DNA of 64,000 bases from Patellaria atrata CBS 101060 (lineage: Eukaryota > Ascomycota > Dothideomycetes > Patellariales > Patellariaceae). Under the pieces are notes generated by a model. That model was not told the origin of the DNA. It did no database searches and saw nothing but the letters and a program-made list of their open reading frames with translations. Numbering within the stretch: position 1 is the stretch's first letter; each line of letters begins with the position of its first letter. Shown here piece by piece: positions 43,370 through 59,142 of the stretch. The stretch spans positions 924,849 through 988,848 of the forward strand of contig MU006093.1 in assembly GCA_010093705.1 (NCBI GenBank), given 5' to 3'. A program made the translations under genes and the position numbers.

Positions 43370-43846
43370 CTAATACTTAAAGTCTCTTACATGCTCCCTA
43401 ACCATCTTCCCCTCATCAATAACAATATATTCCACCCCAATAGTAACCCTAATAGTATCCATATCAATAAGCTTAAGTTCATCCGGCCGTATCTTATCCT
43501 GATACTCCTGGTCCAAAAATGCAGACTCAAAGTCCTCATACTTCTGCACATAGAAATCAGCCGCACCGTCGAATTCCAACGCCTCTCGACCGGTTGCATC
43601 GAGCATCTTTTTACCGAGAGCTTTATGTTCGGAGGTAGTATGATACTACGTTTGGTGAACGTGAGATCGTGGGGATCAGTCGGTGGGGCGACGTACCTGC
43701 GTGTACTTAATGATGCCGCATCTTCTCAGCCATTCTGTTGCTAGAGGACCGTGCTCGTGTGCCCAGTAACGGTTGAACTCTTCTTCTGATAGACCTTCTC
43801 TGCGGTTCACGAAGACTTGAACGCGGATGTATTGCTCTGTCGACAT
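43370..43846 (-). CDS. EthD-domain protein (dimeric alpha-beta barrel)
   Basis: Small protein with the EthD / dimeric alpha-beta-barrel fold; relatives include accessory or catalytic proteins of ether and aromatic catabolism and polyketide tailoring. Two exons on the minus strand: 43846-43697 and 43645-43370, intron 51 bp, phase 0; 141 aa. The N-terminus VQVFVNRREGLSEEEFNRYW and AHEHGPLATEW contain the conserved HxxxH-like region of the family. The splice creates KYTQYHTTSEHKALG, and the C-terminal half has FDGAADFYVQKYEDFESAF, the usual second beta-alpha unit. A downstream AG would break the frame, so the CGTAG acceptor at 43646 is preferred. Confidence 0.88.
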
Positions 43847-49112: not shown

Positions 49113-51727
49113 ATGTATTTCTCCCGCCTTCCAGTTCGCCCTCTTAAAGTTCCCCGCTCATTGCCTCTCTCTAGTCTTCAGCACACATTCCGAGCTTCAC
49201 GATATACCTCGGTGGCGCCCTCTTTGTCGAGACGAGTTGCCCTAGTTAGGGCGCGCAAAGAGTTCCTCAGAATGGAAACGCAAGCCTTCTCGACGAGCGC
49301 TACGAGCGCGCAGGACGACTTGAAGCTCACCAATAGACTCTCTGAGAGTAGAAGTCCGTACGTAAGTACTAAGACCATTTACTTTTGGAACTAAGCTTAT
49401 ATATATTTCGCAAAAGGTACGACAACACATGAACAACCCTGTAGCATGGCAGATGTGGACTCCTGAGACTCTGGCGCTTGCGAAGAAACATAATAGATTG
49501 GTTTTCCTAAGTGTTGGATATTCGGCATGTCATTGTTAGTCTCTCTTCCGCGGTTCCGTTAGCCTTTACTGACTAGAGGAAAAGGGTGCCATGTCATGGA
49601 ACGTGAATCATTCGAGAACCAAGAGGTCGCGAATATACTTAATAATCATTTCGTCCCCATAAAGATCGATCGAGAAGAACGCCCGGATGTTGACCGAATA
49701 TATATGAACTTTGTGCAAGTTACCACTGGTTCAGGAGGCTGGCCACTCAATGTCTTCCTAACACCAGATCTAGAGCCCATATTTGGTGGCACATATTGGC
49801 CAGGCCCAACATCAGCGACTGCTCATGCTGATCATATTGGATTTGTTGACATTCTTCAGAAGATTCAAAGTGCATGGAAGACACAAGCTCAGAAATGTAA
49901 AGAGGACGCGAAAGGGATTACTGAAACAATGAAAGCATTTGCTGCAGACGGAACAATAAGTCGTTTGGGAGATAGCGATGGGGAAACCCAAGGCCTAGAA
50001 ATAGAGCTTCTAGAAGATGCATACGAACATTACGCAAGGAAATTCGATACGAAACATGCAGGCTTCGGTGCTGCACCTAAATTTCCTACACCGGTTAACT
50101 TATCGTTCCTTCTTCGGCTTGCCCAGTATCCAAATGCGGTAGAACATGTTGTCGGGGAGCAGGAATGCAAGAGAGCAAAGGAAATGGTACTCAGAACTCT
50201 TAAAGCAATGGCTAGGGGTGGTATCCATGATCAAATTGGAAATGGTTTCTCTAGATATTCAGTAACACGAGATTGGAGCCTGCCACACTTCGAGAAGATG
50301 CTCTACGACCAGGTGCAACTTCTACCCGTCTACTTAGATGCTTATCTCATCACCAAAGATGAGGAGTTTTTAGATGTTGTTCATGATATCGCAACATATT
50401 TAACGACTCCACCACTGCATTCCCCTACTGGAGGATTCTTCTCCGCAGAAGATGCAGACTCTCTGTATAGACCTAATGATACGGAGAAACGGGAGGGAGC
50501 ATTCTATGTTTGGACACTTAAAGAGTTCCGGTCCATTCTTGGTGATATCAACGGGGATATATGCGCGAAATATTATGACGTGCAAGAGAACGGGAATGTC
50601 AGTCCTGAACACGATGCTCACGATGAACTACTTAATCAGAATGTACTGCACATTAGAAGCACACCAGAAACGCTTGCTAAGGAATTTGGACTCAAGGAAG
50701 AAGAAGTTGTGAATATTCTTAAGGAAAGTAGAATTAAGTTGCTGGAGCATCGAAATAAAGAGCGTCCACGTCCTGCGCTAGATGACAAGATCGTAGTTGC
50801 ATGGAATGGCCTTGCTCTAGGTGCCCTCGCTCGAACAAGTACCGTGATTGAATCTATCGATCTAGAAAAGTCCAAAGAGTACAAGAAAGCAGCCGAAGAT
50901 GCAGCTAGTTTTATCAAGAAAGAACTCTATAACTCGCAAGACGGGACTCTAAAACGTGTCTACCGCGAAGGCCCCGGCGACGCCCCTGGTTTCGCAGACG
51001 ACTACGCCTTCCTAATTTCCGGTCTCATCGACCTCTACGAAGCTATATTCGACGACTCCTATCTCGAATGGGCCGAGAAGTTACAAAGTACGCATCCCCT
51101 ACTTTCCCCCCCCCTTAAAACCCTTACACACTTCCCCACTTCACTCACAAAAGCTAACCCCTCACACCAGAAACCCAAAACGAGCTCTTCTGGGACTCAG
51201 AATCCGGCGGCTTCTTCTCCACCGTCCCCTCTCCAGATCTGATCCTCCGCCTCAAAGACGGCATGGACGACTCCGAACCCTCCGCCAATGGCGTCAGCGC
51301 GCAGAACTTACACCGCCTCGCTGCCCTCTTCGACGACGCAACATACACGGATCGGGCGCAGAAGACGGCCCTCTCGTTCGAGGCGGAGATCATGCAGCAC
51401 CCCTACCTCTTCTCCAGCATGATGGGGAGCGTCGTCGCAGGCCGCTTAGGGGTCAGGAGCGTGGTTGTCTGCGGCGAGGGCGAGAGGGTCGAAAAGGCGG
51501 TGCGGGAGATCAGGGAGAGAGTCGTGCCGAATGGGGTCGTGGCGAGGTTGGGCGCGGGCGCGAAGAGCGATGGTTGGTTAAGGGCGAGAAACGAGCTGTT
51601 CAAGCATTTCGATGCCAATAAGCCCAGGGTCCAGGTTTGCGAGGATGGAGTCTGCAGGGAGGAGTTGGAGGTCGAGGAGGTGGCGAGGGCGATTAAGGAG
51701 GAGAGGCATGATGAGGTGGTGCAGTAG
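49113..51727 (+). CDS. DUF255 / thioredoxin-like SPATA20 (YyaL) family protein
   Basis: Protein with an N-terminal thioredoxin-like DUF255 domain and an alpha/alpha-barrel (six-hairpin) C-terminal half; the function is unsettled, and similarity to N-acylglucosamine-epimerase folds is known. Four exons: 49113-49361, 49417-49534, 49585-51087 and 51171-51727; 808 aa. The first about 60 residues are Arg/Ser-rich with no acidic cluster, fitting a mitochondrial presequence. The redox-like CHWCH motif is rebuilt across the second splice (YSACHWCHVMERESF). Then come DREERPDVDRIYM, GGWPLNVFLTPD, GGTYWPG, FEKMLYDQVQLL, FFSAEDADS, DDKIVVAWNGLALGAL and EPSANGVSAQNLHRLA. The base composition shifts to GC-rich from about 50960 onward within the same gene. 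It is convergent with the fusion hydrolase gene, only 100 bp away. Confidence 0.94.
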
Positions 51728-51827
51728 AGTGAAACGGGGGTTCTAGACACGGGTGTAATGTTCATGATACACGACAAATCAGACAAAGCAGCAAAAAAAA
51801 TTCTAATATCAACCATACATCCCCAAA

Positions 51828-53579
51828 TCATCCCCTCCCCCCTTCCTCCAACTCTTCCAGAAAACTCCCCACGCGCTCCGCAACCTCTTCCCCCCGCTCA
51901 ACCATAGGCAAATGCCCGGCCCCCCGCACAACCCACGCCTCCGCCCTCCCACCCCCCTTCTTCCCAAACTCCCCCGCCATCTCCCCCATAGTCTTGGGCA
52001 GAACCCCGTCCTCCCCTCCAACAATGAATAAACCCCGCCCCCTCGCCGCCGCGAGCGCATCCCGCAAATCGTACGCGAACAGTGCGCGCACCGCGCGCTT
52101 GAAGCCCGGTAGAGAGTTCGAGCGAACCATTTCGCGGACGGTCTCTATACGGGGTATTAGGGAGGGGGAGGAGAGGGAGGTGCGGGGGAACCAGCGCTCT
52201 ACCGTCTGGGCGGCTAATTCTGCTCCGACCGGTCTATCACCGTCACTGGGGTTTGTAGAGGAAGAGGAAGAGGAAGAGGAAGAGGAAGAGGAAGAGGAAG
52301 AGGAAGAGGAAGAAGAGGACTCAGCAACACGCACACGCGCTGTCCAAGCTTCGGGATTCGAGGCGGGAGCCACGGGATTAGTATCGCACGCCACGAACGC
52401 CAAGATACGAGAGGGATAGGTCAGCGCGGCGTGCAGGGCCGTTGCGGCGCCGAGGGATACGCCTGCCACGACGGCGGTCGGGAGGCGGAGGGCGTCGAGG
52501 AGGAATGTGAGATCCGCGGATAGGGTGGCCAGGGTAATGGGGTCGAGTGTGCCGGTGGAGGCGGTGCGGCCTCGGGTGTTGTAGCGGAGGATGCGGTAGT
52601 TGGAGCCGGTGGGGGAGGCGAGAAAGGCGCGCACGAAGGTGGACCAGATTTCGTGGGTTGTGAGGATCGCGTTGGAGAGGGTTAGGACCGGGGCGGTGGG
52701 GGAGGGGTTGCCTTCGAGGCGGTAGGGAAGGATTGCGCCGTCGGGGGTTGTGAGGGAGCAGGTTATGGCTCGATGGGGGGAGGAGGGGGAGGAGGGAGGC
52801 GTGGTGGTTTGGATGCCTAGGTAGGAGAATGTTGTTTTGCGGGTGGAGATGGAGGAGAGGTCGCGGGGCCCGGGGCCGAAGATGTAGTGGAGGGTGTAGT
52901 TGCGGATGGTTATGCTCTTGACGATTGTGGAGTTGATTCGTTGGCTCCACTCTGTTGTGAGCATGGTCATCCACTCTGGGCCCCCGATGCCGTTCTCGGG
53001 TGCAAACTCGTGGAGAGCGACCCACTCTTTCTCCGTGCGCTCATCGAGAGAACTGGTGACGCAGAGTCGCGTTCTTCTCCAGCCTGGGATTTTCATCATC
53101 ATGGGCATGTGCTCGCCGTTGTACCATTCAAGCAACTTCTCGTCATCCGCTGGATCAACAACCGCAGCCACAGTAATAAGAAGGTTAGTCGGGTCTTCCC
53201 CTTGCATTTCCCTAACGTCGGGACCTTGAAACCCTTCAGAAGTCCATTCCTTGTCGTCTTTGAGGATATGTCTGTTGACCTTGATCTGTGAGATTACCTC
53301 TTTTTCTCTGTCACTCCGTTGAGACCTTAGGTTTTTATACGTTTCGGTTGTCAGTTCTTTGAGGTCTGTGGTGTCATATATTGCGAGCCATTCCGGGTTC
53401 TCATCCGTTCCTTCTTCACCATTGAGATCTGTTGCTCTGTAGCGGAATCCATTGGAGAAGAATGGCAGTCTGAGACGTGTAGGCCCATGCTCGTTGTTAT
53501 ACCAATCATGGAACTCATTGGGTGCTAGTGAGGATGAGGGTTGCATCGTCACGAACAGTATGCCTGAGGATGAATCCAT
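51828..53579 (-). CDS. EthD-EthD-alpha/beta-hydrolase fusion (enol-lactonase-like)
   Basis: Single-exon, 583-aa fusion. The true start is the ATG at 53579 (MDSSSGILFV); the frame extends upstream without an ATG. Residues 1 to about 235 contain two tandem EthD-like alpha-beta units with paired motifs WYNNEHGP (26-33) and WYNGEHMP (152-159). From about 265 to the end is an alpha/beta hydrolase like 3-oxoadipate enol-lactonase: oxyanion/strand region, nucleophile GVSLG with Ser375, Asp524 in GGEDGVLP and His556 in GAGHLPM, so the triad is complete. A poly-Ser run of about 20 residues interrupts the cap region near residue 421-441 before QTVERWFPR. Its neighbours are a carboxymuconate cyclase and an intradiol dioxygenase, so hydrolysis of a muconolactone or enol-lactone is the likely job. 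The hydrolase half lies in a GC-rich patch; the EthD half does not. Confidence 0.88.
   Translation of the reverse strand: MDSSSGILFVTMQPSSSLAPNEFHDWYNNEHGPTRLRLPFFSNGFRYRATDLNGEEGTDENPEWLAIYDTTDLKELTTETYKNLRSQRSDREKEVISQIKVNRHILKDDKEWTSEGFQGPDVREMQGEDPTNLLITVAAVVDPADDEKLLEWYNGEHMPMMMKIPGWRRTRLCVTSSLDERTEKEWVALHEFAPENGIGGPEWMTMLTTEWSQRINSTIVKSITIRNYTLHYIFGPGPRDLSSISTRKTTFSYLGIQTTTPPSSPSSPHRAITCSLTTPDGAILPYRLEGNPSPTAPVLTLSNAILTTHEIWSTFVRAFLASPTGSNYRILRYNTRGRTASTGTLDPITLATLSADLTFLLDALRLPTAVVAGVSLGAATALHAALTYPSRILAFVACDTNPVAPASNPEAWTARVRVAESSSSSSSSSSSSSSSSSSSSSTNPSDGDRPVGAELAAQTVERWFPRTSLSSPSLIPRIETVREMVRSNSLPGFKRAVRALFAYDLRDALAAARGRGLFIVGGEDGVLPKTMGEMAGEFGKKGGGRAEAWVVRGAGHLPMVERGEEVAERVGSFLEELEEGGRG
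52256..52318. repeat. GAAGAG hexanucleotide microsatellite encoding poly-Ser
   Basis: About ten copies of a GAAGAG-type unit on the + strand, nearly perfect, in frame with the minus-strand hydrolase gene, where they encode Ser. The antisense frame encodes poly-Glu. Confidence 0.95.
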
Positions 53580-54323
53580 CTTGAATAGTACTGAAGTCGA
53601 ATAGCTTGAACGGACAATTGAAAAATAGGAGGATATCAACCAAAGTAGCGCTAAATTCCAGAGAACGAGGAGCTCTTCTTTCTTTGCTCTTTCTTAATGA
53701 TATAGTGGAACATTACTGAAGAGCAATATAATCGAAATCAAAAGAAATCGAATCTACCGAAAGTAATAATTTTGGTACTTTCTAATGCTCTAAATACTAA
53801 ATTTTTGAAATTTGCAGCGGTGATAAATGGTCTGAATAGGTATCTGTTGGCGATCCTGAAGGAATAACTAGATGGCACGCCTAAATCATGCTATAGTCTC
53901 TTAATTGTTTGGGTTATTGTAAAGGAATCGGGTTGCTAGTCTTTGCTGTTGGAGTTGGATCAGTTCGTATATTGCACGTGTATCAACTGCATTGAGACCG
54001 TTGATGTTGTTGATTTTAGGATTGAGAAAAGCGTCGTGAAGGCAGAGCTCTATCTGGGGTGACCTTGGTACAAGTAGAATTGGTCAATTTAATAAGAGCT
54101 AAACTTACCGAGCCCCTCTGCCGATCCAAAAGTAGGCCAGGTCTCTATAACTCACAATTGCCGAATTGACTCTGCTAGATATATACATGCAACACTGCTT
54201 AGCACGGAGGTTTGTTAACACAAGAGAGAAGATACACAAGAGAGAAGATCGAGTAGGTCATATTCACCTTGATAAGCTCCCTTGGTCTTGATCTAATCCA
54301 CCTTAACTCAGGACATACAAATC
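53580..54323. other. Intergenic, no gene recognised
   Basis: 744 bp of AT-rich DNA upstream of the fusion hydrolase and downstream of the cyclase, both minus strand. A duplicated ACACAAGAGAGAAGAT word occurs near 54218-54248. Confidence 0.5.
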
Positions 54324-55580
54324 TTAGTCATACCAGATCGCGTTCATGCAGAATCCCGGCTCCTTGACGTCTAAATGAGCTACTCTCGCCAGATACTCGT
54401 CCTTGAATCTATACATCTCAATCCATCCTTTCTCATCATCACATAAAGCAACCCACTCGTCACTCCAGTGGCATGGACTTACAGCGTTAGAGTGACCTCC
54501 GCTTGTAGGCGTGGGATTAATAAAGAGCTGCTTCTCAATATTGCCCACAGGACCTAAACGGAAAGCGGAAATATATCCGGTCACATTAGGGGAGTTGGAC
54601 CGACACGTTGCAAAGAGATATTTGCCGCTTTGCGTCAGGAAGCAAACGTCTGAACGATACATCTTCAAAGGACCATGGCCTATACTTCGTCAGACCGATT
54701 CGCTAATTGCGTCGGAAATCAGTTACCTGGTGGGATGAGAGGGTATATCATATGAGTGAAAACAGGAGTGTGAGATCTCTCATCTATCACGTAGACACCC
54801 AGACGATTTCCAGCTTCCATCAACACATACAAGTATTTCCCGCTTGGATGTATAGCCACCCAGCGGGGATGATCTCCCGAACCAGGAGCTTCCAAGCTGT
54901 CGACCAAGATAACTTTTCCAGTTAAGCTATCTTTCTTGTGCGTCCATATCTTGTTTGCCCACATATCCGCTGAATAGAGGTAAGTTTCAGTTGGATCGAA
55001 GACCATGCCGTGCACTGCAGTTTCAGGGGAGTACTCAAAATTCTGAATGCTCTCCCGCATAGCGCCGGTACTGTCCACCCCAAAGGCGTTGCCGTAACCG
55101 GCGTAGTTGTAGAAAGGGTTCCCATACACACAATATGGCGACTTCTGCGCGGCAAGAATGAATATCGCCCTGGTGTTGGAGTCCGGACTGCTCGCTTGTG
55201 CTGGAGGATGGATCAGACTCTTACCACCCAGTAGCAGATGCGAATTCACATACGATGGCCTCCGATAGCAAATGACGCGTGATGGACAATGTCCGTGGGA
55301 CTTTGGACACTGTAACTGGAGAAAGTTTTCATAGATGCACCGTATATGTTTTTCTTAGCATGCTGTGATTAAGAGAGGTTAGTTATCAGATCCCAGGGGA
55401 AAGATCTTGCCTCTCTTGTGGATAGATGGATTTTACATCAAATGTCATCCATGATATAGGTTCAGCATGCGGTATCTCCGTTCTCTTGATTAATTTCAAA
55501 GTCAATTTCTCGTCGTCGAACTCAATTGTGAAAATGGCTCCTGGAGGTGTCCATGTTCCAACCATAAGATGATGCCGCAT
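54324..55580 (-). CDS. 3-carboxy-cis,cis-muconate cyclase (CMLE), fungal type
   Basis: Seven-bladed beta-propeller enzyme that closes 3-carboxy-cis,cis-muconate to a muconolactone in the protocatechuate branch of the beta-ketoadipate pathway. Four exons on the minus strand: 55580-55437, 55362-55254, 55200-54727 and 54679-54324 (introns 74, 53 and 47 bp), 360 aa. The sequence follows the Neurospora CMLE closely as I recall it: HHLMVGTWTPPGAIF, EPISWMTFDHAKKNIYGA, IGGHPQASSPDSNTRAIF (made by splicing), AVHGMVFDPTETYLYSAD, GDHPRWVAIHPSGKYLY, PTPTSGGHSNAVSPCHWSDE and the end GFCMNAIWYD. The start MRHHLMVG is chosen because the frame upstream does not match the family. It is divergent from the dioxygenase gene and on the same strand as the fusion hydrolase. 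Confidence 0.94.
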
Positions 55581-56281
55581 CGTGAAAGTTAGAGGATGGT
55601 AGGGTAGAAGCTTTCGCTGGCCGTGGTACAAGGAAAAACCTTCGGTTTATATAGGTGCCACAATATGTCTAACCGAATGAAGGCAATTGTAAGTGCAACA
55701 ACATTGCTCATGAAAACCCTACTTTGGGTTGACCTCGGCAAAGTCGACGGTTTCATCAGCCCTACAAACTTAATAGTCGGTATAAAAGACGTCCAGACGA
55801 CGAGCAAGCTCCATTCTGATAGATCGCAGGGATATTGTCAATGATGTGGAGTGTGGAGGAATGGAGGGGTTGAATGTAGAACTACCGGGAAGTAATTATG
55901 AAATTCGATGGGCGCGCCTCGCCCCGCAGCAACGGTAGATGGCAATTGATGGCATTGCCTGTGAGCTTCTAAATCAAGCTGTAGTAATGCGGAGGATGCT
56001 ACTCGCACATTTCATACCGAAGCCGATATATTTGCCGTAGCAAGTCCTTGGAAACCCTGCGAGTGAATGATTTTATAAGACCTCCATGATGCGGGCCCAG
56101 CAAGCGCTACTGATCTCCAAAACATGCAAACTGTGAAATAGAAAGACACCTCATGACCTAGTCGTCTTTGTTTTTCTCTTAACAATCAAACGCAGAGCTT
56201 TTTAGGTCCTCCTTCCTCCTCGAATTTTGATCTTCTTCCCCCTACCACGCGTAAGGATTGAACACACCTTCATCAACAACA
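55581..56281. promoter_or_regulatory. Divergent promoter, CMLE / intradiol dioxygenase
   Basis: 701 bp between divergent start codons of two functionally linked genes, a natural place for shared control by an aromatic-responsive factor. No specific site is claimed. Confidence 0.5.
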
Positions 56282-57228
56282 ATGGCTGCCTCGCAATCGC
56301 GGTTCGACCCAAAGTTTACAGAGCATGTCCTGTCAATAATAGGTCCGAATACTCCGCCACGAACTAGAACCGTCATGTCTGCTTTGATACGACATATCCA
56401 CGACTTTGCCCGCGAAGTTGAACTCACAACCGAAGAATGGATGATGGGTGTACACTTCATAAACAGTCTTGGGCAAATTAGTGACTCGAAACGTAACGAG
56501 ACACACAGAATCTGCGATGTGATTGGCCTGGAATCGTGAGTATGGCAAAATCCACAAAACCTTGCCGGCTGTTGATTTGGCAAAGGTTGGTCGATGAAAT
56601 TGCGCACAAGCACGCGCTCGAAACAGAAGAAGTACCTACATCTTCTTCAATCCTAGGTCCCTTTTGGAGCCCCAACGCGCCTTGGAGGAACTTGGGTGAC
56701 AGCATCATCCAAGATCCTCATCAAGGGCAAGTGTCCCTGTTCAGGGGCAAAGTTCTGGATTTGGTGACGGGGAAGGGTATATCGAACGCGGTAGTTGACA
56801 TCTGGCAAGCATCCTCCAACGGAAAATATGATTTCCAGGACCCCGAAAATCAGACAGACAACAACCTGAGAGGAAAATTCAAGACAGACGAAGATGGGAA
56901 TTACTGGTTCTACTGCTTGAAGCCAACGGCTTATTCTCTTCCCACAGACGGTCCGGCCGGTGTACTCCTGAATCTCTTGGATAGACATGCATGGCGACCG
57001 GCGCACATACATATGATGATCAGTCATGGGGATTATAAACCAGTTACTACCCAGCTATATCCAGATGATGACCCGAATTTGGAGACAGATACCGTCTTCG
57101 CGGTCAAAGACGATTTGATTATCCACTTCGATCCTCTTGAAGGCGATTCCAACGCAGAATTGAAGTTGGAATATAACTTCAAGCTGGCACCAAAGGGAAA
57201 GCCTCCAGTCGAGCGAGCGCAGTTGTAA
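56282..57228 (+). CDS. Intradiol ring-cleavage dioxygenase (catechol/hydroxyquinol type)
   Basis: Non-haem Fe(III) enzyme opening catechol-like rings between the hydroxyls to give cis,cis-muconates or maleylacetate. Two exons, 56282-56535 and 56586-57228, intron 50 bp; 298 aa. The N-terminal helical dioxygenase_N domain ([25 protein letters not shown]) is the type found in catechol 1,2- and hydroxyquinol 1,2-dioxygenases rather than in bacterial protocatechuate enzymes. The iron ligands are all present: Tyr166 (SSNGKYDF), Tyr201 ([12 protein letters not shown]), His225 and His227 (RPAHIHM), a spacing almost identical to bacterial Cat[10 protein letters not shown] and [20 protein letters not shown] are typical. 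It is divergent from the CMLE gene. Exact ring substrate cannot be read from sequence. Confidence 0.94.
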
Positions 57229-58166
57229 GCGTTTGAGGAGATGGCGAAAGAAAACGCCTGAGTACCTGTTGAGGCATTGCGTGCTGGGTATAGCTATTTG
57301 ATTGTTGGCTTTGGCGATATCGTCGAGCTGGAGAATAGGACTGTATATACTATTTGATCCTGAGAATCGATTGTGTAAAATCTTTGGATGGGTGTAGAAA
57401 AGGTTGTATGATGTTAAGGTTAGATGGAAGGACGAGGAGTGACCGAGTGAATACGCGTTCTAGCGCCAACGTTCGTGGCATCAAATCGATCACCAAGATC
57501 TCGCCTCAACCTTCCCATCAGTTCACCACGTTTTCCAGTCTCCAACCTCCTCTTCGTCTGCAGATGCTAATTTCCCGAACGAGTAATGTTGTATGAATTG
57601 CATCACAGTACGGAGTAGTTAACCGATATCCAAAGAGGAGTACACAGACCGTACATCGCGGGAAAGTCATCCACATCGCTGGGATGATGTGTGCGTTCTG
57701 CCTTGATAGTTGGCAGCAAACCCCTGTTCGGCTTGCCGCAAACCACATCCACTGTCGTCATATCCGAGGGTTGCAGACATGTCAGTTCAAGGTTGCACAC
57801 CAGCCTCTGACCAAGTTTATATCTGCGCCTCTTCGCTGTGTGCCACACTTCTTTCCTTTGATCCTCTTTCTCCTGTTTTTATGGTAATTGTTCAAATTTC
57901 CGAATTATCCCATTCGTCTTGATTAGAACTGCTACTCCTGAATTGTGGGGCTGGTAGTTTACATTACGGATATCTTCACGCTTTTGCTTCTCCATGCTAT
58001 ACCAATTCTTCTGCGTGAAGAGAAAGGAAAGAGAGTTCGTCGAGAAGAGCCACTAGAAACCAATCTGTCCTCTGATCCTGTTGTTGAACGAAAGGATAAA
58101 AGAAGTATCGCTTCAATTGCTTTGAACATATATCCGAGAGATTAGGAAAACGAGCAATCACCTCCA
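57229..58166. other. Intergenic, no gene recognised
   Basis: 938 bp between the dioxygenase and BTB genes on the same strand. Short frames only; the last 100 bp form the leader of the BTB gene. Confidence 0.5.
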
Positions 58167-59142
58167 ATGTCTGCATCGCCGTCACCCAAAATGGCGCAAT
58201 CAGAGAAGTCGAAGCCGAGACCTAAAGCTCTCCATGAGTATGTTTGCCCCCGACCCTTCGATTCCTTACCCCATCCTCCCTGTCTCTTATCCCATCCTCC
58301 ATCCTCAAGGGGGTCGAACTTCGTTCTCTTCTAACGGCTCTCTCACTAGGCTTCTCACCCATTCCATGGTAGACCTCTACGTCGGCCCCGAAAACACCCG
58401 CTACATACTGCACGAACGACTTCTATGCTACCATTCGCCTTTCTTCCGCAAGGTTTTCTACTCACCCTCGCGCAAAGCGACTGACAGCAAAGCATTCGGC
58501 TTACCCGACGAGGATGAGACCCCATTTAAGATTTTCGTCGGATGGCTCTATAGCGATAGCATCCGCTCACCAAAGGCTGAGAAAGATCTTGGCGATCTTT
58601 TCGACCTGTACTTAATGGCCGAGAAATGGGGTATCGAAAACCTAATTAGGGACGTGCTACGTATCATCCGTGACTTCTACCGGGAGACGAAGACGTACCC
58701 GGGCTTGCGCCGCGTCCAGTATATCTACGCCAATACCGATGATAGTAGTCCAATGCGTCATCTTCTGGTGAGCAGCATAGCGCGTATGATGACCATTGGG
58801 GAGGGTATCCCGATGCACTGGGATAAAGCACTCAAAAAGAATGGTCAACTCGCCGTGGACATTATCAGGGCTATTCAGGGATGGCGGCTAGAGGAGGAGA
58901 CCGTACCGGACGCGAGAGAAGAGGAACTGGAGGAGATTGAGGTAGATGACCGGAAAAAGAAGCATGTGGAGAGAGAAGCGGAGAAAGAAATAAAGAAGAA
59001 CGAAGAGAACCCGGGGCTGGTGAATGGCGGCAATGAAGAAGAGATGGACCAAGCAGAGCAACAGGAACAGGAACAGGACGACGATGATGAAGACGAGAAA
59101 ACGATGGTTGCATCTGCGTCCACGCACACTTCATCCAACTGA
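58167..59142 (+). CDS. BTB/POZ-domain protein
   Basis: Protein with a BTB/POZ protein-interaction domain, as in many fungal adaptor or nuclear proteins. Two exons, 58167-58237 and 58350-59142, intron 112 bp; 287 aa. The first exon codes a short basic tail (SEKSKPRPKALHE). The BTB fold starts directly after: VDLYVGPENTRYILHERLLC, YHSPFFRKVF, FKIFVGWLYSDSI and LYLMAEKWGIENLIRDVLR. The C-terminus is a long Lys/Glu-rich helix followed by an acidic Gln/Asp/Glu tail. A longer frame starting inside the intron at an ATG at 58240 is open but would replace the good splice site and the domain start, so it is not preferred. Confidence 0.87.

Follow-up and report, generated by a model that had tools for sequence, protein, structure and literature searches.

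A gene of the fungus Patellaria atrata CBS 101060 very probably encodes an enzyme of the ChdA type, which in the fungal protocatechuate branch would convert 3-carboxymuconolactone into beta-ketoadipate within a single polypeptide chain. The coding sequence (51828..53579, minus strand; 583 amino acids) lies in a window of 64,000 nucleotides of contig MU006093.1, the whole stretch of DNA that was analysed, and its putative hydrolase/decarboxylase product joins two EthD-like units to an alpha/beta hydrolase. The protocatechuate branch is a main fungal route for aromatic plant carbon. Its step leading to beta-ketoadipate was assigned to chdA in 2023, with the N-terminal half of the enzyme left uncharacterised in the published account (PMC10406623), and the function is thus very probably established in kind through ChdA and not new. 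This article adds a predicted fold for the N-terminal half, a probable gene triplet and a testable form of the question whether isomerisation or decarboxylation comes first.

The closest known enzyme is ChdA of Aspergillus niger (NRRL3_01409, GenBank OR137153), which was deleted and expressed by Sgro et al. (2023; PMC10406623); as described there, the purified recombinant protein converts 3-carboxymuconolactone into beta-ketoadipate in vitro, as seen by UV and NMR. Its C-terminal half is reported to share 28% identity with PcaD and to give a model closest to 2XUA, and its N-terminal half carries a BRO-N annotation (IPR003497) and is called a "previously uncharacterized structure" with decarboxylase activity, a function proposed from domain content (PMC10406623). 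The same account states that the chdA deletion strain keeps a weak growth, that NRRL3_00837, another protein, is essential as well and that neither A. niger mutant showed a detectable build-up of 3-carboxymuconolactone (PMC10406623). By published description, ChdA and AN10520 of Aspergillus nidulans are of the same size class as the P. atrata protein and share with it the PcaD-like C-terminal half and the extra N-terminal half, and ChdA acts at the step after the cyclase, as proposed for the P. atrata protein.

With a separate N-terminal domain in the model, a mass of 63.8 kDa (about 61 kDa for ChdA; 60.6 and 61.1 kDa for two homologues) and a PcaD-like C-terminal hydrolase with a Ser-Asp-His triad, the P. 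atrata protein agrees with this description. Architecture, size, the presence of one full-length copy in the genome and the gene neighbours allow the strong inference that it is the orthologue of ChdA. No entry named NRRL3_01409 or AN10520 stands among the 120 matches listed in either of two homologue listings. Contrary to the assignment, the IPR003497 annotation of ChdA is not reproduced in the P. atrata protein, and BRO-N did not appear among the Pfam matches either of this protein or of the nine homologues that were scanned.

The fusion gene and its homologues

The frame runs on the minus strand from an ATG at 53579 to a stop codon that ends at 51828 and contains no in-frame stop; an in-frame TTG 60 bases 5' of the ATG would give an alternative product of 603 amino acids. 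The absence of introns would fit the homologue alignments. Long overlapping frames inside the gene, at 52378-53025 (minus strand) and 51994-52419 (plus strand), are probably a by-product of base composition, and the region 51000-58000 has no Rfam match at the gathering threshold.

At least 719 homologues were found at E<=0.001 among 7994 scored candidates, many more than chance would give. The best 120 of these, which were listed, share 44-50% identity with the query and cover 94-99% of it, and all of the listed records with an organism name belong to ascomycete fungi. A preliminary description of this gene, made from the sequence alone, had suggested looking for the same domain order in other fungi; judged from these alignments, the order and its presence in a single chain are common to many ascomycetes and not peculiar to P. 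atrata.

Conservation was assessed over 211 homologues of 520-620 amino acids, out of 213 listed. Forty columns are fully invariant, and arginine fills ten of them, five per half, a distribution in keeping with polycarboxylate binding by both halves; the conserved arginines, Arg338 included, may also serve other uses than carboxyl binding, conserved arginine being common to many families. Twelve of the invariant columns fall in the N-terminal half (His31, Glu92 and the five arginines among them), and His157 is kept in 206 of the 211 sequences.

A run of 21 serines (residues 421-441; 52257..52319, minus strand) interrupts the hydrolase domain, in contrast to ChdA as published. Most of it is encoded by an AGAGGA hexamer repeat, perfect over 9.5 copies at 52257-52313 (TRF). 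The run overlaps a segment with pLDDT below 50 in the full AlphaFold2 model (residues 436-445), and 14 of the 211 homologues have a loop of 9-25 residues at this position. Since the longest serine run in the homologues is of five residues, its length may differ between strains.

The N-terminal half

Unit 1 (residues 1-113; 53241..53579, minus strand), delimited from AlphaFold2 secondary structure and conservation, and unit 2 (residues 133-234; 52878..53183, minus strand), delimited from AlphaFold2, hhalign and Pfam, are EthD-like units of ferredoxin fold. Translation places the motif WYNNEHGP at residues 26-33 of the former (53481-53504) and WYNGEHMP at residues 152-159 of the latter (53103-53126), as had been described before; a DUF4286 match (Pfam) covers residues 136-193 of unit 2. 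When aligned to each other by hhalign the units gave a probability of 86% (P=5.1e-6, 93 aligned columns, 15% identity), whereas the control alignment of unit 1 with the hydrolase half gave 0.1% (P=0.69). Together with the single open frame, this likeness bears out the earlier view of one gene that joins two EthD-like units to a hydrolase.

In the AlphaFold2 prediction the N-terminal half consists of two beta-alpha-beta-beta-alpha-beta units. It was also modelled alone, because hydrolases took up the matches when the full model was used for the fold search; this second model, built from seven rows, some of them partial, reached a pLDDT of 84.8, and its consistency with the full model was assessed solely from secondary structure. 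Over nearly its whole length it matches single-chain alpha+beta barrels, including PenE (9kdp), the anthrone-oxidase-like 5f9p, sulfur oxygenase reductases, 2pgc and 3mcs (5-14% identity in the listed rows), with coproheme decarboxylases among the further matches. The predicted structure thus has the feature of the dimeric alpha+beta barrel superfamily, in which two ferredoxin-like units form a barrel. The preliminary description had proposed tandem barrels: the EthD-like units are indeed repeated, but in the models each is a half-barrel and both together make up one single-chain barrel. EthD proteins and other single-chain barrels (PF07110) likewise form one barrel of two such units in one chain; the fusion to a hydrolase is a feature of the P. 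atrata protein.

At the level of sequence profiles this relationship is faint. The EthD family PF07110 scores 16.7 bits with the whole protein and 19.1 bits with its N-terminal half, below the cut-off of 22, which is exceeded by six of the nine homologues scanned. A profile of the N-terminal half found 2ftr (E=0.37) as its sole match among PDB sequences. Muconolactone isomerase would be a barrel of the same superfamily; its family PF02426 is absent from the 14 Pfam families listed for the fusion protein up to E=10, and its structures are absent from the 50 listed rows of the N-half fold searches, an absence which does not argue against the fold.

A non-catalytic role for this half, as a barrel for substrate binding or oligomerisation that leaves all the chemistry to the hydrolase and the loss of CO2 to a spontaneous reaction, appears improbable. 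The only recognised catalytic triad does sit in the C-terminal half, and many EthD-like proteins are, to our knowledge, of unknown function; however, the twelve columns that are invariant in 211 of 211 sequences are more suggestive of an active site than of a scaffold.

The N-terminal half shares 45% identity with that of a Paecilomyces variotii homologue, and one homologue record, from Lasallia pustulata (P0083), is already named "Dimeric alpha-beta barrel", a hint at the same fold. A search for free-standing relatives with residues 1-265 gave 14 hits and no firm evidence for a standalone barrel: two bear the label partial, the contigs of at least eight are no longer than about 3 kb, and some continue into a hydrolase. 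P0218 and P0219 lie on longer contigs, and the latter looks in the alignment like a truncated model. A contig scan for bacterial relatives with the N-half alignment (two short patterns) matched 51 stretches, none of which was confirmed. Some 8 kb away from the fusion gene the window contains a distinct, canonical EthD gene that an intron appears to divide (43460-43801, minus strand; PF07110, 67.7 bits, E=3.6e-17), and a further EthD match occurs on the same contig (C5:1013185-1013466).

The hydrolase half and the order of steps

The C-terminal half (residues 273-581; 51837..52763, minus strand) is a PcaD-like alpha/beta hydrolase, recognised by Pfam (Abhydrolase_1) and by its likeness in sequence and fold to the PcaD enol-lactonase 2xua and to 3om8, annotated as "probable hydrolase". 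Structure prediction of both halves, a check proposed at the outset, gave an EthD-like alpha+beta barrel followed by a PcaD-like hydrolase. The triad is complete at exactly the residues first described, Ser375 (codon 52455-52457), Asp524 (52008-52010) and His556 (51912-51914), each kept in all 211 homologues. Bacterial PcaD (2xua) differs in lacking the fused N-terminal barrel and in one motif: the RGH of 2xua and 3om8 is replaced by RGR, and the second arginine, invariant among the homologues, may hold a carboxyl group that the substrate of PcaD does not have.

Bacterial proteins in which lactonase and carboxymuconolactone decarboxylase are likewise fused (PcaDC, NF051488; PcaCD, NF051487) carry as partner a 4-carboxymuconolactone decarboxylase (PcaC), the fold of which differs from that of the P. 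atrata N-terminal half. PcaC has a fold of the AhpD type, and its family PF02627 has no Pfam match in the fusion protein. Although NF051488 is the best NCBIfam match, through the hydrolase part, neither model comes near its cut-off (107.5 against 390 bits and 59.7 against 430 bits). The PcaD equivalog TIGR02427 scores 98.5 bits against a cut-off of 255.85, which would agree with a hydrolase that acts on a different lactone or ester and adjoins the cyclase gene by chance, as would the fact that ChdA was matched by published description and not by sequence alignment. Such a coincidence is nevertheless very unlikely in view of the matching architecture and size, the neighbouring genes for the preceding steps and the one full-length copy in the genome.

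In the product of the cyclase the extra carboxyl group is on C3, an sp2 carbon of an unsaturated lactone, where direct loss of CO2 would have no electron sink; in the bacterial isomer the carboxyl is on C4 and an electron sink is present. Because the substrate carboxyl is on such an alkene carbon, an order in which isomerisation comes first is favoured. The N-terminal barrel, probably through its conserved His, Glu and Arg, would take the proton from C4 and return one at C2 to give the 3-carboxy enol-lactone. The Ser-Asp-His hydrolase would then open this lactone, as PcaD does, to 3-carboxy-4-oxoadipate, from which CO2 would be lost, whether or not the barrel assists. The first two steps have known counterparts in the double-bond shift of muconolactone isomerase and the enol-lactone opening of PcaD, and 3-carboxy-4-oxoadipate, as a beta-keto acid, should undergo facile decarboxylation. 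On these chemical grounds we infer both the share of each half and the sequence of isomerisation, ring opening and CO2 loss, the latter with about even confidence. The more specific proposal, put forward at just short of even confidence, is that the N-terminal half is not a decarboxylase: it would be a double-bond isomerase similar to muconolactone isomerase, with the architecture of a single-chain EthD-type barrel, and the "decarboxylase" activity of ChdA would consist in CO2 leaving the beta-keto acid once the hydrolase half has opened the isomerised lactone.

In a somewhat less probable scheme, though one to be taken seriously, decarboxylation comes first: the N-terminal half would remove CO2 from 3-carboxymuconolactone, perhaps after its own tautomerisation, and the resulting beta-ketoadipate enol-lactone would be hydrolysed by the C-terminal half, which resembles PcaD. 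This division of labour was proposed for ChdA from domain content (PMC10406623) and also in the preliminary description. Consistent with it, coproheme decarboxylases occur among the fold matches, EthD proteins of fungal polyketide clusters have been labelled putative decarboxylases (PMC4591646), and experimental evidence for the decarboxylases MdpH1, TpcK and ClaH is given in a review (PMC9890505), their tie to EthD being our reading by way of PMC4591646. What stands against it is general chemistry, the carboxyl being on an alkene carbon that, unlike that of bacterial 4-carboxymuconolactone, has no electron sink, so that a double-bond shift would be needed even here. The earlier idea of a decarboxylase plus hydrolase acting after the cyclase therefore holds very probably as to the pathway step, in view of ChdA (PMC10406623), but an isomerase is at least as likely on chemical grounds for the N-terminal half. 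If the isomerase reading is true, it would explain how one protein replaces two or three bacterial activities, and the fungal route would mirror the catechol branch (isomerase, then enol-lactonase) and not the bacterial protocatechuate branch. Once this half is recognised as an EthD-like barrel formed by a single chain, the choice between isomerase and decarboxylase becomes directly testable.

Gene neighbourhood

Upstream of the fusion gene and on the same strand lies a cyclase gene (54324..55631, minus strand; PF10282), the central exon of which matches the Neurospora crassa cyclase 1jof with E=1.3e-68. Beyond it and in divergent orientation follows an intradiol ring-cleavage dioxygenase gene of apparently two exons (56282..57228, plus strand; PF04444 and PF00775); a search of the 28.3 Mb genome that ignores introns found no other PF00775 match. 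Contrary to a protocatechuate context, this dioxygenase obtains 134.6 to 123.3 bits with models for chlorocatechol and catechol enzymes, more than the 65.6 and 34.4 bits with bacterial protocatechuate models, none of these models reaching its cut-off, and its closest solved structures are, by name, enzymes for hydroxyquinol-type or chlorocatechol substrates. Its position beside a 3-carboxymuconate cyclase gene makes a protocatechuate dioxygenase the simplest reading, and the three genes probably form a triplet for three successive steps. PcaC (PF02627) and muconolactone isomerase (PF02426) had no match in the genome, introns being ignored.

This arrangement differs from that in A. niger, where by its published locus numbers cmcA (NRRL3_02586) is far from prcA and chdA (01405 and 01409). 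An account that follows the older A. nidulans hydrolase assignment reports that the protocatechuate genes of Scedosporium and A. nidulans do not form a cluster (PMC8283699), and for Ceratocystidaceae a cyclase gene is reported upstream of a catechol-dioxygenase gene (PMC8896014). In P. atrata a second cyclase-like locus, on another contig (G000 C8:1426866-1427357), has 41% identity to the cyclase exon of the window. The genes that flank the triplet region, at 49596-51242 (PF03190) and 58234-59142 (BTB), look unrelated to the pathway.
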